Positions 11,019 to 34,036 of a stretch of 34,036 nucleotides of DNA are shown here, in pieces (position 1 is the first letter of the stretch; every line of letters starts with the position of its first letter). The translations under genes and the position numbers were made by a program. Location: the IMG/VR virus record IMGVR_UViG_3300046459_000213, positions 1-34,036 of that record, one strand, 5' to 3'. The notes beneath the pieces are model-generated. The model ran no database searches, was not told the DNA's origin, and worked only from the letters and a program-made list of their open reading frames with translations. This DNA is from a virus.

Positions 11019-11242
11019 CCACGATACTTTATGTGCTCATATTTCTGCTAGGGGTCCTAATAGGCTACTTCCTCAAGACGTGGCGAGCTAGGAGAAGTAG
11101 CGTAGGGACGATACATGTGATTCGGGAAGATACTCGGACTCTGTACTCGCTCGAACTCGAGGACTACCCCGAATCGCTGGCGTTTCGAAAGGCTGTGCTG
11201 TTCAAGGTCGACACTTCTTCGGACGAAGCTGATCGCGACTAA
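11015..11242 (+). CDS. Small single-pass membrane protein
   Basis: 75 residues; ATG 11015 overlaps the upstream TGA. One N-terminal transmembrane helix (ILYVLIFLLGVLIGYFL, residues about 4-20) is followed by a basic stop-transfer sequence (KTWRARRSS) and a cytoplasmic tail with GTIHVIREDTRTLYSLELED. The tail resembles a small conserved protein of actinophages and Clostridia phages that I recognise without a known function. It sits at the end of the tail operon and its stop codon overlaps the first of the TCGCG/TATAAT promoters. Confidence 0.75.
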   Translation: MTTILYVLIFLLGVLIGYFLKTWRARRSSVGTIHVIREDTRTLYSLELEDYPESLAFRKAVLFKVDTSSDEADRD

Positions 11243-11257
11243 AACTTCCTGTATAAT
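11233..11257 (+). promoter_or_regulatory. Promoter P1 (TCGCG-N14-TATAAT)
   Basis: A perfect TATAAT at 11252-11257 is preceded by TCGCGA at 11233, exactly 19 nt from the first T of the -10 box. No TTGACA-like hexamer lies at 16-18 bp. It overlaps the end of the preceding gene and gives a leader of about 20 nt to the gene at 11281. The same spacing recurs at four other sites in the window. Confidence 0.75.
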
Positions 11258-11280
11258 AGAGAATCTATTGAAGGAGTGTC

Positions 11281-11639: not shown

Positions 11640-11715
11640 GATTTCAATATCTGAAAAATCCCCGGGGGGTAAAAATCCCTCAAGGTCCAGATATTGGCTC
11701 GTAGAGTCTAAAAGC

Positions 11716-11740
11716 TCGCGAAAAATACAGGGCATATAAT
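11716..11740 (+). promoter_or_regulatory. Promoter P2 (TCGCG-N14-TATAAT)
   Basis: A perfect TATAAT at 11735-11740 with TCGCGA starting at 11716, again 19 nt upstream, followed by an A-run (AAAAATA). There is no TTGACA box. It lies downstream of the terminator at 11601 and upstream of the 43-residue gene at 11765. Confidence 0.75.
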
Positions 11741-11764
11741 GAATCTACTACGAAAGGAATTTTC

Positions 11765-11933: not shown

Positions 11934-11936
11934 CAA

Positions 11937-11961
11937 TCGCGAGAAAAACATCACCTATAAT
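11937..11961 (+). promoter_or_regulatory. Promoter P3 (TCGCGAGAAAAAC, TATAAT)
   Basis: TCGCGAGAAAAAC at 11937 and TATAAT at 11956-11961, with AGAAGG just after. The same 13-nt upstream block, spacing and downstream AGAAGG occur at promoter P4. It starts directly after the terminator at 11902-11933. Confidence 0.8.
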
Positions 11962-11965
11962 AGAA

Positions 11966-12033
11966 GGGAGTAGTGTATAATTCGATACATTTCGGAGTGA
12001 ATCCGAGCTACTCCTCTTCTCTTTTTCTTTTTC
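11966..12033 (+). promoter_or_regulatory. 5' leader hairpin with U-rich tract, attenuator-like
   Basis: In the leader of P3, GGAGTAG (11967-11973) can pair with CTACTCC (12008-12014) around a smaller CGGA/TCCG hairpin. A pyrimidine-rich tract (TCTTCTCTTTTTCTTTTTCC) follows. The layout resembles an intrinsic terminator or attenuator ahead of the gene at 12052. The U tract is interrupted by C residues, so termination would be partial. Confidence 0.4.
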
Positions 12034-12228: not shown

Positions 12229-12617
12229 AGCCAGTCGACATCAATGTAAAAGTTCCGAGTATTGAGGGGGTTAAAGCTCACTGGGCCAATCACAAGCGTG
12301 AATATCTGATCGGTGGCGGCTGTCTCGTGCTGGGATATTTGCTGCATACGCAGATCAAGCCCCCCTCGTACAACATCGCTTCAATTTTCGTGTCCGGCAA
12401 GAACAATACCCTGGAGAACGTCTCGCTGATCTCCGTCGCTAGGCAAGGCCCGCCAAGCTGGGTGGTTTGGTGTAAGGAAACTCAACAACCATTCCTTTCT
12501 CAGCGGTCAGCCGCGTTCAGTAACGGAATTCCAGAAGTCACCCTATCGAGACACTTGAACGGCTTGCTCGAAAATGCGAATGGCCTGCACTTCGAACGAA
12601 TTTGCATGGCAGCTTAA
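12225..12617 (+). CDS. Membrane-anchored protein with NUMOD1-like C-terminal domain
   Basis: 130 residues from ATG 12225 (GGAAG upstream; ATGA overlap with previous gene). A cytoplasmic N-terminus (DINVKVPSIEGVKAHW) is followed by one hydrophobic segment (YLIGGGCLVLGYLL, about residues 26-39). The C-terminal about 55 residues read VVWCKETQQPFLSQRSAAFS, then VTLSRHLNGLLENANGLHFE. This fits the pattern of small NUMOD1-type DNA-binding modules (a C-x-E-T strand, an S-x-R-x-A-A helix, a short turn, S-x-x-x-R-H-L-x-G, then G-x-x-F-E). A DNA-binding-like module tethered to the membrane is unusual. The assignment is by pattern only. Confidence 0.65.
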   Translation: MKPVDINVKVPSIEGVKAHWANHKREYLIGGGCLVLGYLLHTQIKPPSYNIASIFVSGKNNTLENVSLISVARQGPPSWVVWCKETQQPFLSQRSAAFSNGIPEVTLSRHLNGLLENANGLHFERICMAA

Positions 12618-12642
12618 TCGCGAGAAAAACCTGTCGTATAAT
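12618..12642 (+). promoter_or_regulatory. Promoter P4 (TCGCGAGAAAAAC, TATAAT)
   Basis: TCGCGAGAAAAAC at 12618 and TATAAT at 12637-12642 followed by AGAAGG. Upstream block and spacing are identical to P3. It begins directly after the TAA of the preceding gene and drives the gene at 12752 with a leader of about 105 nt. Confidence 0.8.
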
Positions 12643-12651
12643 AGAAGGTAT

Positions 12652-14720: not shown

Positions 14721-14721
14721 T

Positions 14722-14746
14722 TCGCGGAAGAAACACGCGCTCTAAT
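14722..14746 (+). promoter_or_regulatory. Promoter P5 (TCGCG, TCTAAT)
   Basis: TCGCGG at 14722 and TCTAAT at 14741-14746, 19 nt apart, followed by AGAAGT. It is the weaker member of the family with one mismatch in the -10 box. It sits directly after the stop of the preceding gene and about 30 nt before ATG 14777. Confidence 0.65.
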
Positions 14747-14776
14747 AGAAGTAGCCCTCAAATTTAGGAGAGGTTC

Positions 14777-15081: not shown

Positions 15082-15103
15082 CCATGTCTAGTCGAAGGGC
15101 GTA

Positions 15104-16880: not shown

Positions 16881-16887
16881 GAGAGAC

Positions 16888-18196: not shown

Positions 18197-18206
18197 GAGG
18201 GATTTG

Positions 18207-21956: not shown

Positions 21957-21964
21957 GAGAAAAG

Positions 21965-22432: not shown

Positions 22433-22527
22433 CCGTTGCCGTTCTCATCGTTGTACCAATTGTAGTTCTGATTAGTGTGGCCTTTGGCTACTTCCTAGGT
22501 GCATCCCGAAACCCTCCTAACGGATAG
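22429..22527 (+). CDS. Tiny single-pass membrane protein (32 aa)
   Basis: 32 residues from GTG 22429 overlapping the upstream TGA (GTGA). It reads MTVAVLIVVPIVVLISVAFG, then YFLGASRNPPNG: essentially one transmembrane helix of about 21 residues with a short polar tail. It fills the gap exactly between two supported genes and its overlap is typical of translational coupling, but there is no separate ribosome binding site. Real but not proven. Confidence 0.5.
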   Translation: MTVAVLIVVPIVVLISVAFGYFLGASRNPPNG

Positions 22528-22533
22528 GAACCT

Positions 22534-22857
22534 ATGGAAACCACCAGCATCACAGAAAAGTACGTTCGCAAGCCGCTGTACGTCGACGCCGTTCAAGTAA
22601 CGGAAGAGAACTTCGGAGATATCGCTCGCTGGTGCTTCGGTGAAGTAGGAAACATCGACGAAAGTCCGGTCGATCGATCCTCTGACTACGAGCCTACAAA
22701 GCAGTACATCCACGTCCGTGTTCATAATCCGAAGAACCCTCGCCAGACTAAGGCGTTCGTCGGCGACTGGATTCTCTACACCGAGCGCGGATACAAGGTG
22801 TACACGACCAAGGCATTCCAGGCCAACTTCACCAAGGTCGCCGAAACTTCCAACTAA
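22534..22857 (+). CDS. Conserved phage protein of unknown function
   Basis: 107 residues, ATG 22534. Sequence features: YVRKPLYVDAVQVTEENFGD, IARWCFGEVG, then KQYIHVRVHNPKNPRQTKAF and VGDWILYTERGYKVYTTKAF. The pattern (a P-x-x-V-D-A-V-Q-V-T-x-E-N start, a W-C helix, an RQT-x-AFVGDW strand and an YKVYT-x-AF end) is a very common small protein of phages from Gram-positive hosts, compact and beta-rich, with no function known to me. The ribosome binding site is weak (GGATAGGAA). Confidence 0.75.
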   Translation: METTSITEKYVRKPLYVDAVQVTEENFGDIARWCFGEVGNIDESPVDRSSDYEPTKQYIHVRVHNPKNPRQTKAFVGDWILYTERGYKVYTTKAFQANFTKVAETSN

Positions 22858-22881
22858 CGGTTCTAGGGAGGGGGTGAAAAT

Positions 22882-23040
22882 TTGCCGAACGCGGAGAACG
22901 AGAACGACATGCTCGAGATCAAGCAGTTCTTCGACAACACCCCCGGACTTCCGTTGAAGGAGGGCGAGTTCAAGGACTTCTGGATGTCGCTGAGCAAGGA
23001 GGAGCGCGACGAGTTCCGGAAGACGAAGCTGGAGAACTAG
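22882..23040 (+). CDS. Small acidic protein (52 aa)
   Basis: 52 residues from TTG 22882, supported by a strong GGGAGGGGGTG ribosome binding site and close packing after the previous gene. It reads MPNAENENDMLEIKQFFDNT, PGLPLKEGEFKDFWMSLSKE, then ERDEFRKTKLEN. Two short amphipathic helices around a PLK-x-GEF-x-DFW motif are predicted. This resembles a small conserved actinophage protein. Base composition is more GC-rich than its neighbours, with mostly G or C in third positions. Confidence 0.65.
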   Translation: MPNAENENDMLEIKQFFDNTPGLPLKEGEFKDFWMSLSKEERDEFRKTKLEN

Positions 23041-23057
23041 AGCCAGCTGCTCACAGA

Positions 23058-23136
23058 AGTGGAGACGATTTCAGCCCTCGCCGAGATCGTCAGGGGATAA
23101 CTGTGAGAGGGCGCGGTAGATCACCCAATTTCCACT
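23058..23136. other. Structured intergenic segment with nested and alternative pairings
   Basis: Within the gene-free 23041-23190 stretch, AGTGGA (23058-23063) can pair with TCCACT (23131-23136) around GCCCTC (23074-23079) with GAGGGC (23107-23112). CTCACAG (23050-23056) is a perfect partner of CTGTGAG (23101-23107), incompatible with part of this. It may be a structured RNA or leader of the lysozyme-like gene. It does not fold as a tRNA. The remaining bases to 23190 hold only the AAGGAG ribosome binding site of the next gene. Confidence 0.3.
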
Positions 23137-23190
23137 AAACCCGAGTCATCGACGTGGCGCCTACCTGTTGTCTAGTAAGGAGATCTGATT

Positions 23191-23535
23191 GTGAAGCGCG
23201 TGCTACTCATTGTCCTGGTAAGCGTCTTTCTTCTGACGCTCACTGTCGATGCTCAAGCGAAGGGTGAATTTCGAAACGTACCAAAGTGGTGGATCAATTC
23301 GGCTCTCTGTGTCCACAAGTATGAGGGATCGTGGACTGATCCGAATGGACCCTACTGGGGCGGTATGCAGATGGATCTGGCGTTCATGACCCATTACGGT
23401 GGGTGGACATATAGACATTACGGAACTGCAGACCGCTGGCCGTGGAGAACACAACTCCTGATCGCGTATCGCGGTTGGAAAGTCCAGGGCTGGGGAGCAT
23501 GGCCCAACACGTCACGAATGTGTGGTCTACGGTAA
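23191..23535 (+). CDS. Secreted lysozyme/transglycosylase-like protein (probable endolysin)
   Basis: 114 residues from GTG 23191 with AAGGAG upstream. A signal peptide is clear: basic MKR, hydrophobic VLLIVLVSVFLLTLTVDA, cleavage expected after AQA near residue 23. The mature part has WWINSALCVHKYEGSW, with Glu45 placed like the catalytic Glu of Rpf/transglycosylase (lysozyme-like) folds, then GPYWGGMQMDLAFM, YGTADRWPWRTQLLIAYRGW and WGAWPNTSRMCGL. The W-G-G-x-Q-M, T-A-D-R-W-P and N-T-x-R-M-C-G-L motifs are shared with secreted actinobacterial transglycosylase-like proteins as I know them. It probably cleaves peptidoglycan during lysis. No holin is recognisable next to it, although several small membrane proteins are encoded in the window. 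Confidence 0.75.
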   Translation: MKRVLLIVLVSVFLLTLTVDAQAKGEFRNVPKWWINSALCVHKYEGSWTDPNGPYWGGMQMDLAFMTHYGGWTYRHYGTADRWPWRTQLLIAYRGWKVQGWGAWPNTSRMCGLR

Positions 23536-23543
23536 GGAGAAAA

Positions 23544-23789
23544 ATGGCTGAGCCCAAACTGCAGATCGAAAAGCGTCTGGACCGGATCGAAATAGCGATT
23601 CTTAAGATGTTGGAATTCGGTTACGGAGACAAAGAAACAGAAGTGATCGAGCAGATCCTTCGGGCAGACGCACGTCCAGAGGAGAGTCAGGATGCCGGTT
23701 CGGAAAGTCAAGGGCGGGTACAAGTACGGGAAGAAGGGAAAGACGTACCCGACGAAGAAGCAAGCAGCGAAACAGGGTCGGGCGATTAA
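23544..23789 (+). CDS. Small helical protein, C-terminus overlaps another gene
   Basis: 81 residues from ATG 23544 (AAGGAG). The first about 50 residues form a helical domain (KLQIEKRLDRIEIAILKMLE, then GYGDKETEVIEQILRADARP). Residues 51-81 are acidic and low complexity and are encoded in the same DNA as the gene at 23692 in another frame. The helical half has a heptad-like pattern and could be a coiled coil. The N-terminal half looks conserved in type; the tail may exist only because the overlapping gene fixes the sequence. Confidence 0.6.
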   Translation: MAEPKLQIEKRLDRIEIAILKMLEFGYGDKETEVIEQILRADARPEESQDAGSESQGRVQVREEGKDVPDEEASSETGSGD

Positions 23790-23814
23790 GGCCAATCAGA
23801 ACAAGAAGAGCTAA
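23692..23814 (+). CDS. Small basic phage protein (40 aa)
   Basis: 40 residues from ATG 23692 (GGAGAG upstream) to TAA 23812-23814. It reads MPVRKVKGGYKYGKKGKTYP, then TKKQAAKQGRAIKANQNKKS. The pattern, a V-x-K-V-K-GGYK-x-G--GK-x-Y-PTK-x-x-A--QGRAI core, is a well-known small phage protein of unknown function. Very basic and probably nucleic-acid associated. Its first 98 nt overlap the previous gene in a different frame. Both starts have good ribosome binding sites. Confidence 0.75.
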   Translation: MPVRKVKGGYKYGKKGKTYPTKKQAAKQGRAIKANQNKKS

Positions 23815-23819
23815 AGCTT

Positions 23820-23845
23820 CCCCCCCTGAGGCCGCTGAGGGGGGG
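23820..23845. terminator. GC-rich hairpin, possible terminator
   Basis: CCCCCCCTGAG pairs with CTGAGGGGGGG around GCCG, with one G-G mismatch. It lies just after the stop of the gene at 23692. There is no T run, so it is not a classical terminator. More G-runs follow to about 23870, then an A/T-richer stretch leads into the helicase gene at 23940. Nothing else is recognisable in 23815-23939. Confidence 0.4.
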
Positions 23846-23939
23846 ATGAGCCGAAGGGGGTGGGGGGACGAGAGGCCTCTGTCAAAGGGACGTTTCCTCA
23901 CCCCTAACGGTTTGTTTAATTTTTCCAACAGAAAGAGAC

Positions 23940-25121
23940 ATGGTAGAACTCAGACCTCATCAACAGATCGCTCTTAGAGATCTCTGCAACGGAAGCATCC
24001 TCTGGGGTCGTGTAGGGTCAGGTAAGTCAAGAGTGGCTGTTGCCTATTACGAGCAACAACATACTGATCGAGATGTGTACGTCATCACAACTGCCAAAAA
24101 GCGTGACAGTGTCGACTGGGAGGGCGAATTCGCCAAGATCGTCGTAGGAAAGGAGCAGAACGCGACTTTACATGGTGTTCTAACCGTCGATAGCTGGAAC
24201 AACATCGCGAAATATACACAGGTGGAGGGAGCATTTTTCATTTTTGACGAGCAAAGGCTTGTTGGAAAGGGAAAATGGGTCAAGTCTTTCCTCAAGATCG
24301 CCAAAAACAACTATTGGATCATGCTCAGCGCTACTCCTGGCGATACGTGGATGGACTATATTCCCGTGTTCGTCGCTAATGGCTTCTACAAGAACCGCTC
24401 GGAGTTCATCAGAGAGCATGTGGTCTATGCTCCTTATTCCAAATTCCCACGAGTGCAGAGGTATCTAGGTGAAAGCCGACTACAGAAGAACAGAAACCGA
24501 ATCCTGGTCCATATGCGGTACGCTAACGAGACGGTTCGCCACTCACAGACGATATTCGTGGATCATAACGAAGATTTGGTTCAGAGCGTTCTCAAGAACC
24601 GTTGGCATATCTATCAGAACCGCCCTATTCGTGACATCTCTGAGCTATTCGGTGTCATGCGTCGCGTGGTCAACTCTGATCCGTCCAGGGTTAAGAAGAT
24701 TGCTGAGCTTCTAGAGCGTCATTCGAAGATGATCGTGTTCTACAATTTCAACTATGAACTCGACATTCTTCGGAGGTTGAACGAGAGTGTCGAGACGGCC
24801 GAATGGAATGGTTGGAAACACCAAGATCTGCCCAAATCTGAAAATTGGCTGTATTTAGTGCAGTATGCTAGTGGTGCAGAAGGGTGGAATTGTGTCGAGA
24901 CGGACACTATGCTTTTCTACTCTTTTACGTACTCTTACAAGCTCTGGGAACAGGCTCACGGCAGAATTGACCGAATGAACACGCCCTTCACAGATTTGAA
25001 TTACTACACGCTAAAATCCAAAAGTGGCGTGGATAGGGCGATTTGGCGGTCTCTGAGCGCAAAACACAACTTTCAGGCCAGAAACTTCGACCCCGAAACT
25101 TATGCCCAAAAAAGTTTCTAA
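23940..25121 (+). CDS. SF2 DNA helicase
   Basis: 393 residues from ATG 23940. It starts with [20 protein letters not shown] and a Walker A motif GRVGSGKS (residues 23-30). Motif II is FIFDEQR (D103, E104; a DEQR variant of DEAH), motif III is LSATPGD (near 130), and motif VI is QAHGRIDR (R342, R345). The second RecA domain is short and contains [14 protein letters not shown]. The family is a compact SF2 helicase I know from phages of Gram-positive bacteria, where it is linked to replication or recombination. It follows the replication region and is single-transcript in appearance, with an intergenic G-run hairpin ahead of it. Confidence 0.85.
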
Positions 25122-25315
25122 AACTCTTCTGATCGCGCGACCCCCAATAAGTAAAAGGCCTTTAGATATTACGTGTAACCCAATAGAAAACTTTTTCCTC
25201 AAGAAATCTTGGCAAAAGCTATTAGCTATTACAAAGAATAAGTTGCCATCCACATCCTCCGCAAGGCTACGCCCTTGCCCAAGGCTCAAAAAAGAATTTG
25301 GAGAGGGGTTAGGGA
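25122..25315. other. Gene-free spacer with a short hairpin
   Basis: A 194-nt region, visibly A/T-richer than its surroundings. GCAAGG and CCTTGC near 25261-25278 can form a 6-bp hairpin. No ORF has a ribosome binding site here, no TATAAT/TCGCG promoter is present, and no tRNA is found. Only the GGAGAGGGG ribosome binding site of the next gene is recognisable at the 3' end. Confidence 0.4.
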
Positions 25316-25810
25316 ATGGAAGAATGGCGTTCGATAGAGGAGTTTCCTGGTTACAGCGTCAGTACTCATGGTAGACTGCGTTCGGACAAGTGGGGAAAGC
25401 TCTTAGCGTTATCGGACACGCAGTACGGTCTCGTTCAAGTTGGGCTCATGCGAGATGGAGTTCAATATCACAGATCGGTTCCGCTTCTGGTTGCTCGAGC
25501 TTTCCTTCCACCGATCACGGAAGCATTCGATACACCGATCAATCTCGATGGTGATCGTCACAATAATCGCATCGAAAATTTAGCTTGGCGTCCTAGGTGG
25601 TTTGCCGTAAAGTACAACCAGCAATTCAAACATCCTGGGGTCTATCACATCGACGCGCCAATTGTCGATCTTCGGTCGGGAGAAGTTAGCGTTGATTCGT
25701 ATCAGTGTGCTTGCCGGTATGGTCTGCTCGAGGAAGATCTTGTTCTCTCGATTCAAACTCGTACTTATGTTTGGCCCACTTATCAAGAATTCGGCATCAT
25801 CGACGATTAG
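25316..25810 (+). CDS. NUMOD4/HNH-like protein with degenerate HNH motif
   Basis: 164 residues from ATG 25316. The N-terminus (EEWRSIEEFPGYSVSTHGRL with RSDKWGKLL) is a NUMOD4 module, normally found on homing endonucleases. Next comes YHRSVPLLVARAFLPP, then INLDGDRHNNRIENLAWRPR, the position of an HNH_3-type nuclease core. In HNH_3 enzymes the sequence is usually N-H-x-D-G; here it is N76-L77-D78-G79, so the metal-facing His seems to be absent while the two Asn of D-x-x-NN-x-x-EN are kept. It may be an inactive or modified nuclease, or a DNA-binding regulator derived from one. The upstream spacer is A/T-rich, consistent with insertion. Confidence 0.75.
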   Translation: MEEWRSIEEFPGYSVSTHGRLRSDKWGKLLALSDTQYGLVQVGLMRDGVQYHRSVPLLVARAFLPPITEAFDTPINLDGDRHNNRIENLAWRPRWFAVKYNQQFKHPGVYHIDAPIVDLRSGEVSVDSYQCACRYGLLEEDLVLSIQTRTYVWPTYQEFGIIDD

Positions 25811-25819
25811 GAGAAAAGC

Positions 25820-26035
25820 ATGGCTAACGAAACTGTGAAACCGTATAGAGATCCTGTTCCTGGACGGGGCTCTATCGAATTGCGCAGAACAGCGGCAGGA
25901 GTCTATTCTTGGGTGATCACGATCTGGACCGACGCAATCGTGACCGACGGTCATCTGATCGGAATGATTGATTCGGTAGAGAGAGTTGATCAAGAACTGC
26001 GTCATAGGTATCCGGAGTCTGGCGATAAGAATTAG
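25820..26035 (+). CDS. Small conserved hypothetical protein
   Basis: 71 residues, ATG 25820 with TAGGAGAAAA upstream overlapping the previous stop. It has a polar N-terminus (NETVKPYRDPVPGRGSIELR), a beta-rich middle (GVYSWVITIWTDAIVTDGHL) and a helical end (DSVERVDQELRHRYPE). No known domain is recognised. It is the last gene before promoter P6 and the second tail module. Confidence 0.55.
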   Translation: MANETVKPYRDPVPGRGSIELRRTAAGVYSWVITIWTDAIVTDGHLIGMIDSVERVDQELRHRYPESGDKN

Positions 26036-26039
26036 ATAT

Positions 26040-26068
26040 TTGGTCTCATAAAATTCGCACAGTATAAT
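26040..26068 (+). promoter_or_regulatory. Promoter P6 (TTGGTC-17-TATAAT)
   Basis: TATAAT at 26063-26068 followed by AGAAGG, as in P3 and P4. At the position of TCGCGA it has TCTCAT, but a -35-like TTGGTC (26040-26045) lies at a standard 17-bp spacing. It is the only good promoter in front of the tail fibre module. The leader to 26138 carries a T-rich tract near 26090-26102. Confidence 0.7.
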
Positions 26069-26137
26069 AGAAGGAAGTAGATCATCCCATTTCTTTTTTT
26101 TCATCTATTGAATCGCAACGCCAAGAAAGGAGGAGCA

Positions 26138-26521
26138 TTGGCGGGTACGATCAACCTACAACCGCAGGTTTTGAATCTTGCGATGTACTCTGGAGATGGA
26201 TTCTCGTTCAAGTTGAAATGCTCAGATGCCAACGGTGCTCCTATCGACATGGGTGGCACCGTCAAAGCCCAAATTCGAAACGATCGTCTACATCCAGAAG
26301 ATTCATCGCTGGTTGATTTCGACGTCAGCACAGTCGACGCCTATCTTGGCATTATCGGTCTTTCTCTTACGGGAGACGACACACAATCTCTGACCGATGA
26401 TCATGGTGACGCCAATGGAAAGTTCAGCGGCGTATGGGATGTTCAATGGACTCCTGCTGGTCTTGAGCCGAGAACCATCTGTCAAGGTATCGCTGAATGC
26501 GTATCCGATGTTTCAAGATGA
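26138..26521 (+). CDS. BppU-like / minor tail protein
   Basis: 127 residues from TTG 26138, set by AAGGAGG at 26127-26133. It begins LAGTINLQPQVLNLAMYSGD, with GFSFKLKCSDANGAPIDMGG next, and has a beta-sandwich-like pattern with KAQIRNDRLHPE, AYLGIIGLSLTGDDTQS and KFSGVWDVQWTPAG. This is the form of a baseplate upper-protein (BppU)-like or minor tail protein N-terminal domain that I know from siphoviruses of Gram-positive bacteria. It is the first gene of the tail fibre module and overlaps the next gene. Confidence 0.65.
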   Translation: MAGTINLQPQVLNLAMYSGDGFSFKLKCSDANGAPIDMGGTVKAQIRNDRLHPEDSSLVDFDVSTVDAYLGIIGLSLTGDDTQSLTDDHGDANGKFSGVWDVQWTPAGLEPRTICQGIAECVSDVSR

Positions 26522-27359
26522 CATCATCGTAGTTGTTAACTCCGACGAAATTCAGATCGAACTCGATGATGCTCCAGACACAGAACTAAGGCTCGAGAAA
26601 GTTCAAGAAGTTAATGTCGTCTTGTCGTATGACGACATTGTGGTTTCATCAGCAGAGCTTACGACAATCACGATCGGACTCGAAGCGCCTCCAGAGATTC
26701 CCCTAAGCATCGTCGAGAATTCCGAGGTGATCGTCCTCGCGGCAGGAAACTTGGGGAACGAAGGACCGCCTGGTCCTGAGGGACCGATGGGACCTTCTGG
26801 TGCACCTGGCCCTCAGGGCGCCGATTCAACAGTTCCGGGTCCGCCCGGCCCAACGGGCCCTCAAGGTATTCAAGGCCTTCAGGGCGTTAAGGGGGATACG
26901 GGAGCAACGGGTCCTGGCGGTGGCGCAACATACTCACAAGTCATCGGTGACGGAACAAATCAATCTTTCACGATTGTCCATAACATAGGTGTTCGTGGTG
27001 TCAGCGTCACTGTTTATCGAAATACTGCGCCCTTTGACGAGATCGAAGCTGATGTGGAATTCACAAGTACAAATGTCGTGACTGTGCGCACTCTACAGGT
27101 TCCGACTCTCGATCAATATGTTGTGTTTGTTTCTGGTCCTGGTGCTGCCGGAGCGGCTGGTAGTGATCTGACTTACATTCATACGCAAAGCAGTCTAGCA
27201 GCAACATGGAATGTTTTACACAATCTCGGTAAATATCCGTCTGTGTCAGTTGTCGATTCTGGCGGATCTGCCATAATTCCGAATGTCAGCTATGCGGGAG
27301 TTAACCAGGTGTCGATTTCGTTCGACGCCCCGACTTCGGGAAAGGCGTACCTCAACTGA
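26508..27359 (+). CDS. Collagen-like tail fibre protein
   Basis: 283 residues from ATG 26508, which overlaps the upstream gene by 14 nt; no clear ribosome binding site, so coupling is likely. The N-terminal about 80 residues are acidic and beta-rich (DDIIVVVNSDEIQIELDD). Then comes a collagen-like Gly-x-y region of about 60 residues (GPPGPEGPMGPSGAPG, GPPGPTGPQGIQG), followed by two similar beta domains (SFTIVHNIGVRGVSVTVYRN and ATWNVLHNLGKYPSVSVVDS), which look like an internal duplication. The collagen rod probably forms a trimer that presents the C-terminal domains as a fibre tip. Confidence 0.75.
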   Translation: MFQDDIIVVVNSDEIQIELDDAPDTELRLEKVQEVNVVLSYDDIVVSSAELTTITIGLEAPPEIPLSIVENSEVIVLAAGNLGNEGPPGPEGPMGPSGAPGPQGADSTVPGPPGPTGPQGIQGLQGVKGDTGATGPGGGATYSQVIGDGTNQSFTIVHNIGVRGVSVTVYRNTAPFDEIEADVEFTSTNVVTVRTLQVPTLDQYVVFVSGPGAAGAAGSDLTYIHTQSSLAATWNVLHNLGKYPSVSVVDSGGSAIIPNVSYAGVNQVSISFDAPTSGKAYLN

Positions 27360-27360
27360 C

Positions 27361-28833
27361 ATGCCCACTCTAGGCGCAGCACTCGACTTCGCAAAATATG
27401 AGGGACGCAATCTGCGTGGGCATCAGCTCGGCACGGCTCCCTCAAGCCCAGTCACTGGTCAGTTGTACTACAACACCGGCGACAACACCCTCTACTGGTA
27501 CGACGGATCAGCATGGGTATCTGCTCGTGGTGGTGCGTCTGCTACTCCTCCCGCAACAACAGGTGCTCTAGGAACTATTCAGTTGGCTGGAGATCTGGCG
27601 GGTACCGCAACTAGTCCTCAGATTGCAACCGGAGTCATCGTTGATACGGATGTGGCTGCAGCAAACAAGGATGGTGTAGCAGGCACGCCGTCCTTGCGCA
27701 CTCTTGGTACTGGAGCACAGCAAGCTGCAGCAGGTAACGATGCTCGCTTGTCGGACGTCCGGACACCCGCGGCGCATCACGCAACTCACGAGCCTGGTGG
27801 CTCAGATCCAATGGCTGTGGACGCAGCCGCAGGTACGGGATCGCTGAGGACTCTCGGTTTGACCGGAAGCAAAGCTATGCCGGGAACGACAACGCTTGAC
27901 GCGATTGCTGTACCAGTTGCCGATGTTAACTTGAACACTCACAAGATTACGAATCTGGCCGATCCCACAGCTTATAATGATGCCGCGACTAAGAATTATG
28001 TGGATAGTTTCACTCAGGGATTGGACGCAAAGCAGTCGTGCAAAGTAGCAACAATCGCAAATATCACACTCGCGGGAGGCGCGCCAAACACGCTCGACGG
28101 AATCTCGCTCGGAGTTACTGATCGTATTTTGGTTAAAGATCAGACGACCCAATCTCAGAATGGTATCTACACCGTGCAAACGCTTGGTACTGGTGCTAAT
28201 GGTACTTGGGTTCGAGCGGTTGATCTTGATGCTCCGGCTGAATTTCCATCAGCATATACATGGGTTGAGCAAGGAACGGTTAACGCTGATACCGGTTGGG
28301 TTTGCACTAACGACGTTGGTCTGATAATTGGCACGACAAATATCACTTTCGTTCAATTTTCTGGAGCAGGACAGATTATTGGTGGTGCAGGCCTTCTCAA
28401 GACGGGTAACACACTCGACGTTGGTGCCGGCGCTGGAATTACTGTCAATGCCGATACGATCCAAGTGGCAAATAACGGAATCACGAATGCGATGATCGCC
28501 GACGGAGCGATCGATGTCAGTACCGCAGATGTCACCGGAACACTGCCTGTCGCAAAGGGCGGTACCGGTGGAACGACGAATCCTACTGCTCGGGCAAGTC
28601 TCGCTGCCGCAGGCTACTATAGCTCGGCCACGCATGGTGCCGGAGCGACAATCTCGATTCCTCAAGCAACTCATGGTCTTCGTGCTACTCGGGGTCTTCT
28701 CGTTCAAGTTCAAGACGAGGCCAGTGGAGCGGTTGAGATTCCGGATATTTCAGTTGCTGCTACTGGGGACGTGACAGTTACCTACGGCGCATCAGTAGCC
28801 GCAAACTCGAAGAGGGTTACGGTGATCGGATAA
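27361..28833 (+). CDS. Modular tail fibre protein
   Basis: 490 residues from ATG 27361. After a short start (PTLGAALDFAKYEGRN) there is a module SSPVTGQLYYNTGDNTLYWY with DGSAWVSARGG that is repeated in the next gene. Later come HHATHEPGGSDPM, NTHKITNLADPTAYNDAATK (as in fibre proteins with KITNVAD-type hinge motifs), the VAKGGTGGTTNPTAR motif, and a C-terminal beta domain. The order fits a phage tail fibre that reaches to the host surface. Starts without a distinct ribosome binding site, 1 nt after the previous stop. Confidence 0.75.
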   Translation: MPTLGAALDFAKYEGRNLRGHQLGTAPSSPVTGQLYYNTGDNTLYWYDGSAWVSARGGASATPPATTGALGTIQLAGDLAGTATSPQIATGVIVDTDVAAANKDGVAGTPSLRTLGTGAQQAAAGNDARLSDVRTPAAHHATHEPGGSDPMAVDAAAGTGSLRTLGLTGSKAMPGTTTLDAIAVPVADVNLNTHKITNLADPTAYNDAATKNYVDSFTQGLDAKQSCKVATIANITLAGGAPNTLDGISLGVTDRILVKDQTTQSQNGIYTVQTLGTGANGTWVRAVDLDAPAEFPSAYTWVEQGTVNADTGWVCTNDVGLIIGTTNITFVQFSGAGQIIGGAGLLKTGNTLDVGAGAGITVNADTIQVANNGITNAMIADGAIDVSTADVTGTLPVAKGGTGGTTNPTARASLAAAGYYSSATHGAGATISIPQATHGLRATRGLLVQVQDEASGAVEIPDISVAATGDVTVTYGASVAANSKRVTVIG

Positions 28834-30005
28834 TGCCAGAATTTGTTGGACGCCTCAGAACTCCGAGACTTTCGGGAGCTCCATCTTCTCCTGTTTCCGG
28901 TGAACTATATTTCGATACAGGAACGAACACGCTTTACTGGTGGAATGGAACTTCTTGGGTTTCCGCTTCTGGTGGAGGCGGAGGCGGCTCGAGTGCTGTT
29001 GATACCCAAGTATTCACAGGCAACGGAACATGGACGAAGCCGGCAGGCGCAAAGACTGTCGAAGTACACGTCTTCGGTCAAGGCGGAGGCGGAGGTGGCG
29101 GAGCCAATCAAGCAGTTGCGACACAGCATAAGGGTGGCGGTGGAGGTGGTTCTGGTGGTCATGTCGAGCAGACGTTTCTTGCAGATAGTCTTCCGGCCAC
29201 TGTTGCTGTTACAGTTGCCAACGCTGCCAACAAAGGAGCCGGAGCTGCTGCGAGCTCAAACGCAAACGGTGGATACGGTTCGCCAGGAGGCGCTTCATCA
29301 TTCGGAACACTTCTGTCTGCCCAAGGTGGCGGAGGTGGAGGACAGGGAGGTAACTCATCAACGCAGAATAGCGTGGCTGGCGGCGGAGCTGGGTTTAATG
29401 CTGCAGGAGTAACGCCAAGTGGTACCAACCCTACTGCTGGCGGTAACGGTGGCGCAGGTTGGTCTGATGGAGGTGGTGCTGGTTCTACTGGTGGTGCTGG
29501 AAACGACGGAGGTCCCGGTAAAGGTGCGCCGTATGGCAGCGGTGCTGGTGGCGGCGGTGGTGGACCGTCTAACGGTGGAATCAACATCAAAATGGGCGCA
29601 GGTGGCGGCGGTGGTACAGGTACCGCTTCCGCGTCGGGAAACGGCGGTAGTTCGATGGCGGGTGCTGGTGGTGGCGGAGGTGGAGCTTCTAGCCAAGCTG
29701 GCTCTGTTGGTGGTGCTGGTGGTAGTTCTTCGCTCACTCCCGGTGGCGGTGGCGCAGGCGGAGCAAGTGGAGCCGTTCCTGTAGTTGGTGCTGTTGGTGC
29801 TGCTTGGAACGCTGGCGCTGGTATCGGTGGTTCTGGTGGTGGCGGAGGCGGCGGAGCAACAGTCGCTGCTGTCGCAGGAGCTTCTGGTGGCGATGGTGGT
29901 CTCGGTGGAGGCGGAGGTGGAGGTGGTGGACCGGGAAACACCACAGGCAAAGGTGGAGATGGCGGAAATGGTGGTGGCGGTTTGGTGGTAGTTATCTCGT
30001 GGTAA
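28833..30005 (+). CDS. Glycine-rich tail adhesin
   Basis: 390 residues from ATG 28833, overlapping the upstream stop (TAATG). It opens with the same module as the preceding fibre (SSPVSGELYFDTGTNTLYWW with NGTSWVSASGG), then a beta domain (TQVFTGNGTWTKPAGAKTVE), after which more than 250 residues consist mainly of Gly tracts. This matches glycine-rich receptor-binding domains that form polyglycine-II. The repeated GGN/GGT codons make the gene prone to recombination and to length changes, and the antisense strand would give a Pro-rich open frame that is a shadow. Confidence 0.8.
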   Translation: MPEFVGRLRTPRLSGAPSSPVSGELYFDTGTNTLYWWNGTSWVSASGGGGGGSSAVDTQVFTGNGTWTKPAGAKTVEVHVFGQGGGGGGGANQAVATQHKGGGGGGSGGHVEQTFLADSLPATVAVTVANAANKGAGAAASSNANGGYGSPGGASSFGTLLSAQGGGGGGQGGNSSTQNSVAGGGAGFNAAGVTPSGTNPTAGGNGGAGWSDGGGAGSTGGAGNDGGPGKGAPYGSGAGGGGGGPSNGGINIKMGAGGGGGTGTASASGNGGSSMAGAGGGGGGASSQAGSVGGAGGSSSLTPGGGGAGGASGAVPVVGAVGAAWNAGAGIGGSGGGGGGGATVAAVAGASGGDGGLGGGGGGGGGPGNTTGKGGDGGNGGGGLVVVISW

Positions 30006-30319
30006 ACGAAGCTCAATACCAAGCCCGTCTCATCAAGAAACTCGACCGACTCTTTCCTGGATGCATTATCTTTAAGATGGATCCCGGCTATCTACAAGGT
30101 GTTCCAGACCTTCTAATTCTTTGGCAAGATCGTTGGGCACTTCTCGAGGTCAAGCGATCGGCCGAATCTCTTGAGCAGCCGAATCAGGCGTACTATGTCA
30201 AGAAACTTCACAAGATGTCGTTTTCTGCGTTCATCTATCCAGAAAATGAAGCGGAGGTACTGAGTGCGCTTCAACAGGCATTTGAAAGTTCAGGGCGAGC
30301 ATGCGTTCCTCAGTCCTAG
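29999..30319 (+). CDS. VRR-NUC-type nuclease (PD-(D/E)XK)
   Basis: 106 residues from GTG 29999 overlapping the end of the Gly-rich gene. It has QARLIKKLDRLFPG, IFKMDPGYLQGVPDLLIL (D37) and WALLEVKRS (E50, K52), the D...E-x-K signature of PD-(D/E)XK nucleases with the GxxD arrangement of VRR-NUC domains. Then NQAYYVKKLHKM and FSAFIYPEN follow, also typical. VRR-NUC nucleases act on branched DNA (Holliday-junction resolvase-like). In this phage it would serve recombination, replication intermediates or packaging. Confidence 0.8.
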   Translation: MVNEAQYQARLIKKLDRLFPGCIIFKMDPGYLQGVPDLLILWQDRWALLEVKRSAESLEQPNQAYYVKKLHKMSFSAFIYPENEAEVLSALQQAFESSGRACVPQS

Positions 30320-30821
30320 TCAGCACCATTGGATTCACTATACGCCAGATCGCCTTCTAGAACGTTGGACCGCAGCACAAGCCGCAGCGTACGGTACTGC
30401 CCAACACGAATACGCCCACCGCGAGATCAACGAAGGGCGCCTTTCGAGTCTTGTTGGAACTGTCGGTCTCTATATCAACGATGCCATCAGATACCGAATG
30501 CAAACCGAGCAAGTTCTCTACTACTCAGAAAACTGTTTCGGAACAGCGGACACGATCTGTTTTCGTTACAACACCCTTCGAATTCATGATCTGAAAACTG
30601 GAGTCTATGCTGGATCTGTCCATCAGCTTGAGGTTTATGCTGCGCTCTTCTGTCTAGAATACGACAAAGATCCTTTCGACATCAAGATGGAGCTGCGCAT
30701 TTACCAAGATAACGAGGTAGTTATATTTGATGTTGATCCAGAAGACATCATGTTCATTATGGAACGAATTCAAGAATTTGATAGACTCATATCCCATCGA
30801 CGAATGGAGGAGGAAACATGA
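30264..30821 (+). CDS. Cas4/RecB-like PD-(D/E)XK exonuclease
   Basis: 185 residues from GTG 30264, supported by GGAGG at 30253-30257. It has QGEHAFLSPSQHHWIHYTPD, AAYGTAQHEYAHREI (the H-x-x-x-H motif), FGTADTICF (D96) and IHDLKTG (D109, K111), then HQLEVYAALFCLEYD, the Q/Y motif of RecB/Cas4 nucleases. No four-Cys iron-sulphur cluster signature is present. It overlaps the preceding VRR-NUC gene by 56 nt in a different frame, which is more than the typical coupling overlap. It probably processes DNA ends. Confidence 0.8.
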   Translation: MRFNRHLKVQGEHAFLSPSQHHWIHYTPDRLLERWTAAQAAAYGTAQHEYAHREINEGRLSSLVGTVGLYINDAIRYRMQTEQVLYYSENCFGTADTICFRYNTLRIHDLKTGVYAGSVHQLEVYAALFCLEYDKDPFDIKMELRIYQDNEVVIFDVDPEDIMFIMERIQEFDRLISHRRMEEET

Positions 30822-33520
30822 TTCGCACCGAAGAAGAACATCTTGCGCATTATGGCATCCTTCGCCGTTCTGGGCGCTATCCGTGGGGTTCGGGTAAAGA
30901 TGAGAATACGCGCAACCGCGATTTCCTCGATATCATCGCTCAGCACAAAAGAGATGGTATGTCCGAGTCAGAGGTCGCAAAAGGCTACGGAATCACTACA
31001 ACTGAGTTGCGCGCAGCCAAGTCCATCGCAAGCGCTCAGCAGAAGCAGGAAAAGCGTCTGACCGCTCAGCGTTTGAAGGATAAGGGTTGGTCGAACGTCG
31101 AGATCGGTAAGCGGATGGGAATCAACGAATCCTCAGTTCGATCGTTGCTTACTATCGGAGCCAGGGATAAAGTCGACGCTCTTCATGCTACTGCCAATAT
31201 GCTTCGCGAACAAGTTACAAAAAAGGGCATGATCGATGTCGGTAAAGGTGTCGAGTATCAATTGGGGGTTACGAAAAGTCGTCTCGACACAGCTGTAGCT
31301 CTGCTCAAAGAAGAGGGCTATGCTGTTCACAACATCAAGATCATGCAGTTGGGCACGGGTAAGTTCACGACCATGAAGGTGCTTGCTCATCACGGAACTA
31401 CGTTGTCTGAAGTTCAGAAGAATCGTGCTCAGATTCAGCAGATCCAGAGTCGATCCAAAGATCATGGTCGAACGTACGAAACATTCCAATCACCAAAGTC
31501 GTTGAGTTCAAAAAGAGTTGGGATTGTATATGGACCAGAAGGTGGCTCCAAATCTGACGGTGTTATCTACGTTCGTCCTGGTGTGAAGGATCTTTCTCTT
31601 GGGCAGAACAACTATGCTCAAGTCCGGATCATGGTTGATGGGACGCACTACATCAAGGGTATGGCGGTCTACAGAGAAGACATGCCTCCCGGTCACGATG
31701 TCATCTTTCACACAAGTAAGAGCAATACGGGTAATAAGAAAGATGTAATGAAGGAGATCTCGAGCGATCCTGAGAATCCGTTTGGTGCGATCACCAGTCA
31801 AGTCACGAATTCAAAGGGCCGCGTTTCTTCAGTAATGAATAAGGTCAACGATGAAGGAACCTGGGACAAATGGTCGAAGAATCTTCCGTCTCAGTTCCTG
31901 TCAAAGCAAAGTCCTACTCTTGCAACACAGCAGCTCAAGACCACGTTCGATAGAAGGACTCGAGAGTATGATGAAATCAGCTCTTTGACAAATCCTTCGG
32001 TTAAGAAAGATCTCCTACTGAAGTTCGCAGACGCAACAGATTCGGCTGCTGTGCATCTCAAGGCGGCTAGTCTACCTCGACAAGCAACCAAAGTTCTTCT
32101 TCCTGTTCCTTCTATGAAAGCCAATGAGATCTATGCACCTAGCATGAGGAATGGCGAGACCGTTTCGCTAGTTCGTTTTCCTCATGGAGGAACGTTCGAG
32201 ATTCCTCAACTCAAAGTTAACAACCGAAATCGTGAAGCGCGAAAGATGTTGGGTACCGCAGCTCAAGATGCGGTTGGTATCCATCATAGTGTTGCTCAAC
32301 GTTTGTCGGGTGCAGATTTCGATGGCGATACTGTTCTTGTTATTCCCAACTCTCACAACAAGGTTAAGAGTAGCGATCCTCTGGATGGGCTGAAAGACTT
32401 CGATCCTCAGTCCTATAAGATCCCTCATGATTCATCCGTTCCTCGAATGACTCCATTTCAGAGGGGTCAGGAGATGGGAAAGATTTCTAACCTGATTACG
32501 GACATGACTATTCGTGGTCAGGGTGGCGGTGCTAGTAGCGATGAACTTGCTCGTGCCATTAGACATTCAATGGTTGTCATTGATGCTGAGAAGCATGGGC
32601 TTGATTATCGTCAGTCCGAGAAAGATCATGGCATCTTGCAGTTGAAGGAGAAGTACCAAGGTAGTAAGAAGGCTGGTGCTACAACTCTAATCAGTCAGGC
32701 CAAGGCACCTAGGGTTATCGAAGAACGTCAACCTCGATCTCCTCGTAGAGGTGGACCAATCGATCCGAAGACGGGTAAGAAAGTCTTCGAACCTACGGGT
32801 CGTACGGTTGCTGAGCGGAAGCTGGTTAGAGATCCAGCAACAGGTGAGAAGCACTATGTGGACACAGGTCGTAGGGTTCCTGCCACGATTCGTGTCCCCC
32901 GTCTAGGAGAAACGCACGATGCGTTTGCCCTTTCCTCTGGCACACAAATGGAAGCTATCTATGCGTCGCATTCGAATAGGTTGAAGAGCCTGGCCAATGA
33001 CGCCCGCAAGCAAGCGCTGGCTACTAAGGCTCATGATAGATCCCCGTCCGCGGCAAAGGCGTACTCAAATGAAGTGGCCTCCCTTAACGCCAAGCTCAAT
33101 CTCGCAAAGAAGAATGCTCCATACGAAAGACACGCCCAGCTCCTAGCAAATGCCCAGGTCTCAGTAAGACGCCAGGCTAATCCACATATGGAGAAAGCGG
33201 AAGTCAAGAAGCTTCGTAATCAAGAGTTGACTAAAGCTAGAGCAAGAACTGGAGCAGGCAAGGACCATATCGTAATAACCCAGGCAGAATGGGACGCCAT
33301 CCAGGCAGGTGCTATCAGTAAGTCTAAGTTGGATGAGATCCTTCGTCATAGCGATACTGATACTGTGAAGAAGCTCGCCCTCCCTAAAAGAAAGCACCTC
33401 ATGACTTCGTCCATGCAGTCTCGGGCTAAGTCTATGCTTGCCTCCGGCTATACACAACAAGAGGTCGCGGATGCTTTAGGCGTTGGCCTCACCACGCTCA
33501 AGGTAGGACTCAATGGCTGA
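30818..33520 (+). CDS. DFDGD protein, RNA polymerase-like double-psi beta-barrel, with HTH segments
   Basis: 900 residues; ATG 30818 overlaps the upstream TGA. Two helix-turn-helix-like units lie near the N-terminus (EVAKGYGITTTELRAAKS; VEIGKRMGINESSVRSLL). A beta-rich region at about 225-310 (VRIMVDGTHYIKGMAVYRED) follows. The key motif is LSGADFDGDTVLVIP with D500, D502 and D504, preceded by VRFPHGGTFEIPQL and HHSVAQR. This matches the D-F-D-G-D catalytic barrel of RNA polymerase beta-prime (NADFDGD), of QDE-1-like polymerases and of phage YonO-type and crAss-like phage RNA polymerases. Downstream helical segments include MGKISNLITDMT. A C-terminal HTH (YTQQEVADALGVGLTTLK) closes the chain. 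It could transcribe phage genes. Confidence 0.75.
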   Translation: MIRTEEEHLAHYGILRRSGRYPWGSGKDENTRNRDFLDIIAQHKRDGMSESEVAKGYGITTTELRAAKSIASAQQKQEKRLTAQRLKDKGWSNVEIGKRMGINESSVRSLLTIGARDKVDALHATANMLREQVTKKGMIDVGKGVEYQLGVTKSRLDTAVALLKEEGYAVHNIKIMQLGTGKFTTMKVLAHHGTTLSEVQKNRAQIQQIQSRSKDHGRTYETFQSPKSLSSKRVGIVYGPEGGSKSDGVIYVRPGVKDLSLGQNNYAQVRIMVDGTHYIKGMAVYREDMPPGHDVIFHTSKSNTGNKKDVMKEISSDPENPFGAITSQVTNSKGRVSSVMNKVNDEGTWDKWSKNLPSQFLSKQSPTLATQQLKTTFDRRTREYDEISSLTNPSVKKDLLLKFADATDSAAVHLKAASLPRQATKVLLPVPSMKANEIYAPSMRNGETVSLVRFPHGGTFEIPQLKVNNRNREARKMLGTAAQDAVGIHHSVAQRLSGADFDGDTVLVIPNSHNKVKSSDPLDGLKDFDPQSYKIPHDSSVPRMTPFQRGQEMGKISNLITDMTIRGQGGGASSDELARAIRHSMVVIDAEKHGLDYRQSEKDHGILQLKEKYQGSKKAGATTLISQAKAPRVIEERQPRSPRRGGPIDPKTGKKVFEPTGRTVAERKLVRDPATGEKHYVDTGRRVPATIRVPRLGETHDAFALSSGTQMEAIYASHSNRLKSLANDARKQALATKAHDRSPSAAKAYSNEVASLNAKLNLAKKNAPYERHAQLLANAQVSVRRQANPHMEKAEVKKLRNQELTKARARTGAGKDHIVITQAEWDAIQAGAISKSKLDEILRHSDTDTVKKLALPKRKHLMTSSMQSRAKSMLASGYTQQEVADALGVGLTTLKVGLNG

Positions 33521-33806
33521 CACATCGTTCGATGGTACGAACCAGCCAACCGAGTACATGCTCACAACTGTGGACAATCCGTTCAGTCCTTTCGATGAGT
33601 TCGAAGAATGGTTGGCCTATGACATCAAGCTAGGGTACAACACCCCAGGTATGCTGGATAGGATAGCACGCGTATCGTACGACTCATCGGAACCTGACCA
33701 AGCACTGGCCATCCAGAGTGCTATCGATGAGATTGTTCAGGAGAACGTAAGTGGAATGTGGAGAAAAGCTTTGAGGAGTGATTATGATACATCGGCTGCT
33801 GCATAG
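33513..33806 (+). CDS. Conserved small protein of the terminase-proximal region
   Basis: 97 residues, ATG 33513, overlapping the preceding stop. It reads EYMLTTVDNPFSPFDEFEEW, then LAYDIKLGYNTPGMLDRIAR, then PDQALAIQSAIDEIVQENVS. The start TTVDNP(F/Y)SPFD is a motif I recognise from a widely conserved protein encoded shortly before the terminase in phages of Gram-positive bacteria. The protein is acidic and helical. No function is known to me. Confidence 0.75.
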   Translation: MADTSFDGTNQPTEYMLTTVDNPFSPFDEFEEWLAYDIKLGYNTPGMLDRIARVSYDSSEPDQALAIQSAIDEIVQENVSGMWRKALRSDYDTSAAA

Positions 33807-33972
33807 GCACTGGCCAGTTTGGTTTCGTGCCGACTACGATGGCCTGACCTGGCGGTACCGATGTGCAGTCTGTGAACCAAATCATCGTGATGCACCTACT
33901 CGAGTCGAGCGAAAAGAAAAATCAATTAAAGTTACAACAAATTTTGGGAGAAAAAAAAATAAAAACTTTTAA
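33784..33972 (+). CDS. Small protein with a possible zinc-binding CxxC
   Basis: 62 residues from ATG 33784 (GAGGAG at 33773-33778). It overlaps the previous gene by 23 nt. The N-terminus (MIHRLLHRHWPVWFRADYDG) is aromatic and basic, followed by RYRCAVCEP, a CxxC, and a very basic C-terminus (RVERKEKSIKVTTNFGRKKN). One CxxC alone makes zinc binding uncertain; a His-rich N-terminus could supply other ligands. The A-rich 3' end merges into the A/T-rich tail of the window. The encoded C-terminus may be poorly conserved. Confidence 0.55.
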   Translation: MIHRLLHRHWPVWFRADYDGLTWRYRCAVCEPNHRDAPTRVERKEKSIKVTTNFGRKKNKNF

Positions 33973-34036
33973 AAAATAAAATCAAAAAATTTTTAGAGGG
34001 GGGGAGGGGTCTCGAAAAAGTAACCCCCCCTAGCAT
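33973..34036. other. A/T-rich and G-run tail with inverted repeat
   Basis: An A/T-rich stretch is followed by AGGGGGGG (33997-34004) and CCCCCCCT (34024-34031), which can pair across a loop of about 19 nt. No gene or promoter is recognisable. It may mark a terminator or the edge of the packaging region. Confidence 0.35.

Follow-up and report, generated by a model that had tools for sequence, protein, structure and literature searches.

The DNA analysed here is the 34,036-nucleotide stretch of IMG/VR virus record IMGVR_UViG_3300046459_000213 (the window). Close to its right end, at 30818–33520 on the plus strand, lies an open reading frame (ORF) with an ATG start, whose 900-amino-acid product is, as judged from its modelled fold, very probably a one-piece RNA polymerase (RNAP) related to the cellular enzyme, the activity being predicted. 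It is preceded by two nuclease genes and followed by a small partner ORF, and six copies of a 31-bp promoter-like element are found in the same window, one of them belonging to the RNAP operon (Table 1). The protein family itself is already known; what appears to be new is the conserved signal travelling with the polymerase.

The polymerase homologue

The PHROG 4291 profile ('RNA-dependent RNA polymerase') covers residues 3–899 of the protein (1229 bits, E 0). A tblastn search detected the gene in 250 of 50,697 phage records, 249 of them with at least 80% coverage, and no match was obtained among 72,556 plasmids. The records belong mostly to Arthrobacter, Gordonia and Streptomyces phages, and also to phages of Lactococcus, Rhodococcus, Curtobacterium, Microbacterium and Faecalibacterium; the gene is labelled there as helix-turn-helix (HTH) protein, hypothetical, RNA-dependent RNA polymerase (RdRP), putative RNA polymerase or structural protein. 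The family is thus annotated as an RNA polymerase (PHROG 4291, RefSeq), but it is named through sequence homology, and a literature search for the PHROG 4291 family found no experiments or shown function.

The motifs on which a preliminary description of this DNA had based its polymerase assignment were located where it had placed them. The DFDGD motif lies within SGADFDGDTVLVIP (residues 497–510), which includes D500, D502 and D504, and the segments preceding it are VRFPHGGTFEIPQL (residues 452–465) and HHSVAQR (489–495). To evaluate conservation, 229 related RNAP loci, not thinned for near-duplicates, were drawn from viral contigs and prokaryote genomes; nine shorter than 820 amino acids were left out, giving an alignment of 221 rows with the window included. 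D500-F501-D502-G503-D504 was invariant in 221 of 221 rows, and no homologue had lost any of the three aspartates. The search itself did not produce this invariance, since 80 of the sequences came from patterns lacking DFDGD and the 73 that remained after the removal of seven short ones all contain it. R270, K280, R453, P455, H456 and N558 also never vary in these rows; R270 and K280 lie in the beta-like barrel region and may correspond to lysines of QDE-1.

An AlphaFold model built on 77 sequences (alignment A2) had a mean predicted local distance difference test score (pLDDT) of 85.7 and a predicted template modelling score of 0.73. The first eleven Foldseek matches were all QDE-1 chains (best E 1e-9), followed by RDR2 and P74-26 gp62. 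In the structural alignment, residues 225–738 of the model were placed on QDE-1 residues 681–1196 (2j7n_A; Z 17.1, root-mean-square deviation 4.6, 382 residues), RDR2 (7roz) superposed at Z 16.6 and P74-26 gp62 (8f5m_B) at Z 14.6 over 349 residues, while the largest subunits of cellular and African swine fever virus RNAPs aligned at Z of about 10 from about residue 414 onward. The superposition on QDE-1, judged as a whole, extends across the region holding both barrels; helices 546–569 and 574–593 come after the catalytic loop within the superposed range and may include the bridge helix. By eye, residues 280–290 (KGMAVYREDMP) were taken to resemble a bacterial beta motif and residues 553–595 a eukaryotic RdRP motif. 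When the solved structures were searched by sequence, either with the protein alone or with alignment A2, the matches were to sigma-factor and other HTH proteins, designed helical proteins and similar entries but to no polymerase, so the polymerase kinship is visible by fold only. The match to the Pfam RdRP family PF05183 reached 19.6 bits against a curated cut-off of 23.8; with such a score, the protein may work like PF05183 members but is not filed among them. The earlier proposal of a single-chain phage RNAP of the QDE-1 kind is supported by the fold together with the invariant aspartate triad.

The flanks of the protein, residues 1–225 and 740–900, were barely covered by the fold search. 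The preliminary description had placed HTH segments at both ends. The N-terminal one passes the Pfam cut-off as HTH_23 (residues 76–109, E 5.9e-8), with a Sigma70_r4 match at residues 88–112 below it, whereas the C-terminal one (865–895) gave sub-cutoff matches only (best E 0.0015); the NCBIfam scan of the protein likewise returned only sub-cutoff sigma and transposase HTH matches. Residues 1–33, predicted to be disordered (pLDDT < 50), contain HYGxxRxSGRYPWGSG, nearly invariant in the 77 rows of alignment A2.

Proteins resembling the N-terminal HTH part alone were also encountered. One is encoded at 23432–23986 in the IMG/VR record of locus L284, about 2 kb upstream of the RNAP gene, and matches profile positions 26–207 (E 7.8e-32); the other is the 95-amino-acid BFVD model A0A5B8WIH5 of Arthrobacter phage Qui. 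Such stand-alone HTH proteins might regulate the polymerase.

The promoter-like element

The starting point was a 40-bp direct repeat in two gene gaps of the window, which pointed to a shared signal. The element is 31 bp long, of the form CGCR-n3-WWTACA-n5-TATAAT/TTTTAT-GA, and lies on the plus strand, mostly in gene gaps, with the TACA box 5 bp away from the -10-like box. Its commonest form is ntCGCaagattTACAngcccTATAATGagAn (29 bits). It was seen in RNAP-bearing phages of Streptomyces, Arthrobacter, Gordonia, Lactococcus and Faecalibacterium, that is, of hosts from two phyla (Actinomycetota and Bacillota).

Iterated matrices yielded 120 plus-strand sites in nine genomes, of which 87 were kept as high-scoring and not coding-looking. 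In a hold-out test at a threshold of 10 bits, in which the tested genome was excluded from training (along with its close partner in the case of Scap1/RosaAsantewaa and P092/1706), 74 of the 87 sites were recovered and the minus strands of all nine genomes gave three matches in total, none of them in the window. Recovery was complete for the window (6/6), Scap1 (7/7), RosaAsantewaa (7/7), Rima (13/13), Arcadia (8/8), Kenosha (10/10) and P092 (10/10). Among control phages without the RNAP, no match was found in phiC31, R4 (to base 50,000) or TP901-1, and the first 50,000 bases of GTE7 gave two plus-strand matches, both within annotated genes. An annotation check of 54 sites in five genomes placed the -10-like hexamer in a gap in 50 cases, with a median of 39 nt to the next start; the other four hexamers are all from Scap1. 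Most of the sites precede small genes between the tail and DNA polymerase genes.

Several features were noticed around the sites. In Rima, Kenosha, Scap1 and RosaAsantewaa the element often runs on as GAGACCCCTA, followed by an AAAGGA-like ribosome-binding site, and in some actinophages AGGGGTCTC lies ahead of it, so that the element is enclosed by an inverted repeat (AGGGGTCTC...GAGACCCCT). A 24-bp repeat of the window (11914–11937 and 15062–15085, 96% identical) ends in a T run and, with the preceding bases, could form a terminator-like hairpin (AGAGACC...GGTCTTT). The first of these copies immediately precedes the element at 11936, and the two are likely to constitute a terminator–promoter unit.

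To examine the RNAP operon, the 229 RNAP loci were scanned with a general matrix at 12 bits. Upstream of the gene there were 223 plus-strand and 6 minus-strand matches, compared with 1 and 1 inside it and 13 and 3 downstream. Among the 153 loci with 3 kb of upstream sequence, 107 had a plus-strand match and three a minus-strand match. The nearest match was located at a median of 918 bp upstream of the RNAP (quartiles 901 and 942.5), i.e., before the endonuclease and exonuclease genes. A matrix refitted on the prophage loci from the genomes detected the element in 78 of 80 (median 937.5 bp upstream) and none on the minus strand (0/80), and in the viral contigs the refitted matrix gave 91 plus-strand loci out of 139 against two on the minus strand; as the matrix had been fitted to these same loci, a fair comparison is with the minus strand. 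The operon copy of the window, at 26043, is separated from the nucleases by a tail-fibre/head-decoration-like block.

The association was also approached from the opposite side by scanning IMG/VR with the element alone, using forms from the early-region copies, and checking the RNAP content afterwards. The RNAP was carried by 19 of 27, three of five and two of two of the records obtained, the remainder being mostly short. Among records of at least 40 kb, 19 of 20 carried it; three of the 20 (60,899, 56,168 and 53,513 bp) share their lengths with the training-set phages Kenosha, Rima and P092. The twentieth (43,769 bp) has no RNAP and ends 394 bp after the DNA polymerase gene, short of where the RNAP gene would lie. 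For comparison, the base rate of the RNAP in the phage collection is the 250 in 50,697 given above. A literature search did not find the link between the element and the RNAP in print.

Gene order and neighbouring genes

Scap1, RosaAsantewaa, Rima, Arcadia and Kenosha share one arrangement, in which a DNA primase/polymerase and a helicase are followed by a VRR-type or other endonuclease, a Cas4/RecB-like exonuclease, the RNAP, the small ORF and then the genome end; extra genes intervene at some points. The nucleases are still upstream in P092 and 1706, where endolysin and small genes precede the RNAP. Oengus carries an integrase; there, a gap of about 345 bp separates the RNAP and its small ORF from a downstream gene run leading to the terminase. 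In the relatives, only one gene stands between the RNAP and the genome end, the packaging genes being at the opposite end. The location near packaging genes, presumed in the preliminary description, is upheld through these relatives only, as the window record stops about 0.5 kb past the gene.

Table 1. Features of the window discussed in the text.
Feature	Position	Strand	Basis
Promoter-like element	11232..11262	+	matrix scan
Promoter-like element	11715..11745	+	matrix scan
Promoter-like element	11936..11966	+	direct repeat and matrix scan
Promoter-like element	12617..12647	+	direct repeat and matrix scan
Promoter-like element	14721..14751	+	matrix scan
Promoter-like element of RNAP operon, GTCTCATAAAATTCGCACAGTATAATAGAAG	26043..26073	+	matrix scan
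Tail-fibre/head-decoration-like gene block between operon element and RNAP operon	26108..30005	+	family matches
VRR-NUC/RuvC-like endonuclease, first conserved gene of RNAP operon	30017..30319	+	phrog_93, synteny
Cas4/RecB-like exonuclease, upstream in RNAP operon	30264..30821	+	phrog_3953
Single-chain two-barrel RNA polymerase homologue, PHROG 4291, 900 aa	30818..33520	+	PHROG match, alignment, model, superposition
N-terminal tag HYGxxRxSGRYPWGSG, residues 11–26	30848..30895	+	alignment and model
N-terminal helical region with HTH units, residues 34–136	30917..31225	+	Pfam HTH_23 at 76–109, model
Beta-like barrel region, residues 225–330, with invariant R270 and K280	31490..31807	+	alignment, superposition of the region as a whole
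Beta-prime-like barrel region, residues 414–512	32057..32353	+	match to largest subunits of multi-subunit RNAPs begins near residue 414
Stretch resembling Pfam RdRP PF05183, residues 491–603	32288..32626	+	19.6 bits, below cut-off 23.8
Catalytic DFDGD (predicted), residues 500–504	32315..32329	+	alignment, sequence
C-terminal HTH, residues 864–899	33407..33514	+	Pfam below cut-off, model
Partner ORF, PHROG 4303, 97 aa	33513..33806	+	PHROG match, position after RNAP, model

The PHROG 4303 partner was found after the RNAP in 164 of the 166 loci whose downstream sequence exceeds 350 bp, at a median gap of 6 nt. A search for it gave 250 records, all of which were retained although the query was covered to 80% or more in only 68; their breakdown by leading host genus matches that of the 250 RNAP records. 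Its model is confident (pLDDT 86.4). No convincing fold match was obtained among 178 chains (best Z 3.1), Pfam gave no match, and BFVD at E <= 0.001 returned only three uncharacterised or unnamed phage proteins. The partner might be an RNAP accessory factor.

The genes at 26108–30005 are collagen-like, DUF5907-repeat and glycine-rich, and sit within the replication/RNAP end of the genome; the block is missing from this position in Scap1 and RosaAsantewaa. Further upstream, at 18204–21956, the window encodes a 1250-amino-acid fusion of a DUF5906 helicase-like part, a weak Prim-Pol match and a DNA polymerase part (PHROG 4210). Past the last ORF, the record is strongly A-rich and then G-rich to its end (33907–34036), perhaps near the physical genome end; in ReqiPoco6, the cos end lies about 0.5 kb after the RNAP gene.

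Interpretation of the element and possible virion packaging

What was seen directly comprises the homology, the modelled fold, the unvarying DFDGD motif, the order of the genes and a repeated, oriented, mostly gap-located element co-occurring with the RNAP gene. Probably, the protein synthesises RNA from DNA, with the element serving as its promoter and the HTH parts as the units that recognise it. We propose, with a probability of about 0.6, that the gene encodes a DNA-dependent, single-chain RNAP with two double-psi barrels, which would transcribe the early small phage genes and its own operon from the compact CGCR-n3-WWTACA-n5-TATAAT or TTTTAT-GA promoter; its own HTH segments would find this promoter and a host sigma factor would not be needed. 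With an HTH-bearing polymerase and a promoter-like signal occurring together, reading of the element by the RNAP is likely and the simplest explanation, though descent alone could link them. The use of the HTH segments for promoter recognition without sigma, suggested in the preliminary description, gains in likelihood from the element, to that extent only.

Several observations weigh against this proposal. No plus-strand match was present within 3 kb upstream in 46 of the 153 loci, nor within 1.6 kb in 48 of the 139 viral contigs, and the hold-out recovery at 10 bits was weak in Oengus (4/14) and phage 1706 (9/12). In actinophages the -10-like box is often exactly TATAAT, which a host sigma factor could read (62 of the 91 operon sites of viral contigs), and nine of the 91 also have a passable -35 box. 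In two announcements of Gordonia cluster DJ phages (Vardy and Conley), five copies of a 43–50 bp TATAAT motif, which appears to be the same element, are described as a sigma-70 promoter. The element and the RNAP could also be co-inherited without interacting, and the enzymatic activity is itself a prediction from sequence and model. Finally, an RNAP absent from the virion would be unable to initiate at a promoter read by no other enzyme, so that either packaging or a host-read start must be added if the promoter is self-read.

The elements might instead be host sigma-70 (sigma-A/HrdB) promoters of the usual type, in which a strong -10 is combined with an upstream box specific to the phage; the RNAP would then be a YonO-like middle or late enzyme with another promoter. 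The TATAAT hexamers just mentioned, which are present also in five of the six window sites, fit such promoters, as do the Vardy and Conley description and the reported transcription of late genes by YonO. The details of the sequence make this unlikely. A TTGACA-like box at a spacer of 16–18 was no commoner than at random positions, and none of the 78 prophage sites had both a -35 and a -10 box. In those 78 loci, the -10-like box was TTTTAT in 49, TATAAT in 11 and TGTTAT in 10, and only 15 had A at position 2 together with T at position 6. As far as sequence goes, no sigma-70 -35 box is present in the element, and in most prophage loci the -10-like box also departs from the sigma-70 form; moreover, the box-to-box layout is constant across phages of Actinomycetota and Bacillota, beyond what host factors would demand. 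Sigma-70 and terminator scans of the window (16000–34036) gave fewer sites than shuffled sequences and were not used as evidence. Neither was the mutual information between promoter column 22 and the RNAP columns, which is confounded by descent (29 of the top 60 in residues 1–224, a region with 199 of the 718 variable columns).

It is rather improbable that the element is a site at which a phage activator or repressor, e.g., the PHROG 4303 partner or another HTH protein, acts on the host RNAP, with the phage RNAP as a passenger of the module. The equal record counts and shared leading host genera of partner and RNAP, the constancy of the partner after the gene and the inverted arms of some actinophage sites would agree with it, but these arms are absent from the window, Lactococcus and Faecalibacterium sites, the partner gave neither a fold match above Z 3.1 nor a Pfam match, and the element is oriented toward the next gene, with the polymerase as the simpler reader. 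Even less probable is that the protein copies RNA templates into RNA, as the database name would imply, or serves replication in the manner of a primase. The nearest solved fold, QDE-1, was solved with RNA and with DNA templates, and the gene adjoins replication and recombination nucleases; the name, however, derives from homology, the phage DNA polymerase already has the weak primase-like stretch, the HTH units and the operon promoter indicate transcription of DNA, and phage two-barrel relatives assayed elsewhere are reported to be DNA-dependent. That the protein keeps the fold but is inactive, with a structural or regulatory DNA-binding role, is hardly credible, as all 221 rows retain the three aspartates, R270 and K280, even if many records name it just helix-turn-helix.

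Apart from its promoter, the polymerase might act as a virion-packaged enzyme, for which the odds appear somewhat below even. Packaged and injected, it would start early transcription from the elements independently of the host, the N-terminal tail would be a packaging/ejection tag and its own gene would be expressed late for repacking, a virion-RNAP strategy shared by long-tailed phages of Gram-positive hosts, from Streptomyces to gut Firmicutes, with a QDE-1-like enzyme carrying its own promoter-reading domains. Virion RNAPs of N4-type phages are late products, and tags similar to the HxGxxGxxWG type are common in phage virion proteins. HYGxxRxSGRYPWGSG, nearly invariant and predicted to be disordered, is suggestive of a short signal. 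In at least four of the nine genomes, five of the nine being covered without their left ends, another protein has a related HxGxxGMKWG-type tag. These second carriers, probably virion-associated, are Scap1 gp6, RosaAsantewaa gp6, Oengus 40135–40782 and 1706 orf7, the last labelled structural. The depositors of Lactococcus phage 1706 named the orthologue, orf75, 'structural protein' without the 'putative' used for other genes; they gave the same plain label to two small early-region ORFs, and the ReqiPoco6 record copies it for the RNAP. Structural proteins of 1706 were reportedly identified by mass spectrometry; a literature search for virion proteomics of this phage gave nothing usable. In the window phage, the conserved operon element also precedes virion genes. 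A self-read operon promoter, together with early genes under the same signal, would call for an enzyme supplied from outside the cell.

Among known systems, the closest is the PHROG 4291/RefSeq RdRP of actinophages, Lactococcus 1706/P092-type phages and Faecalibacterium FP_oengus, of which the window protein is a member, with a similar gene order and the same partner ORF. The eukaryotic two-barrel RdRPs QDE-1 and plant RDR2 are alike in the fold of residues 225–738 and the weak Pfam RdRP match, but that match is sub-cutoff, and the phage protein has HTH units at both ends and a gene in a phage replication module. The non-virion RNAP P23-45 gp64/P74-26 gp62 (BFVD match A7XX94) is likewise a single-chain phage RNAP, although shorter (about 600 amino acids) and missed by the sequence searches of solved structures. 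The crAss-like phage phi14:2 gp66 virion RNAP has the same two-barrel single-chain fold (Foldseek 6vr4, E 2.6e-3, weak) in a 2166-residue chain, and the possible virion packaging of the window protein would be a further common trait. YonO of SPbeta, likened by description, is also a single-chain phage two-barrel RNAP; its promoter was left open in the YonO paper, whereas a candidate exists here. The Vardy and Conley motif, from relatives of Kenosha, is intergenic and contains TATAAT like the element, but the available parts of the announcements link it neither to an RNAP nor to phages of other phyla. The literature cited comprises PMC10770324, PMC5467207, PMC11536984, PMC13313380, PMC9302106, PMC10868162, PMC9671010 and PMC5559632.

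Although mostly labelled 'helix-turn-helix protein', the family is common among isolated actinophages and in prophages of the gut. Should the element prove to be its promoter, these phages would possess a compact transcription system consisting of an enzyme of about 100 kDa and a signal of about 30 bp, with no sigma factor. This would provide a QDE-1-like single-chain phage RNAP with a candidate promoter and would bear on sigma-free transcription start by two-barrel RNAPs.

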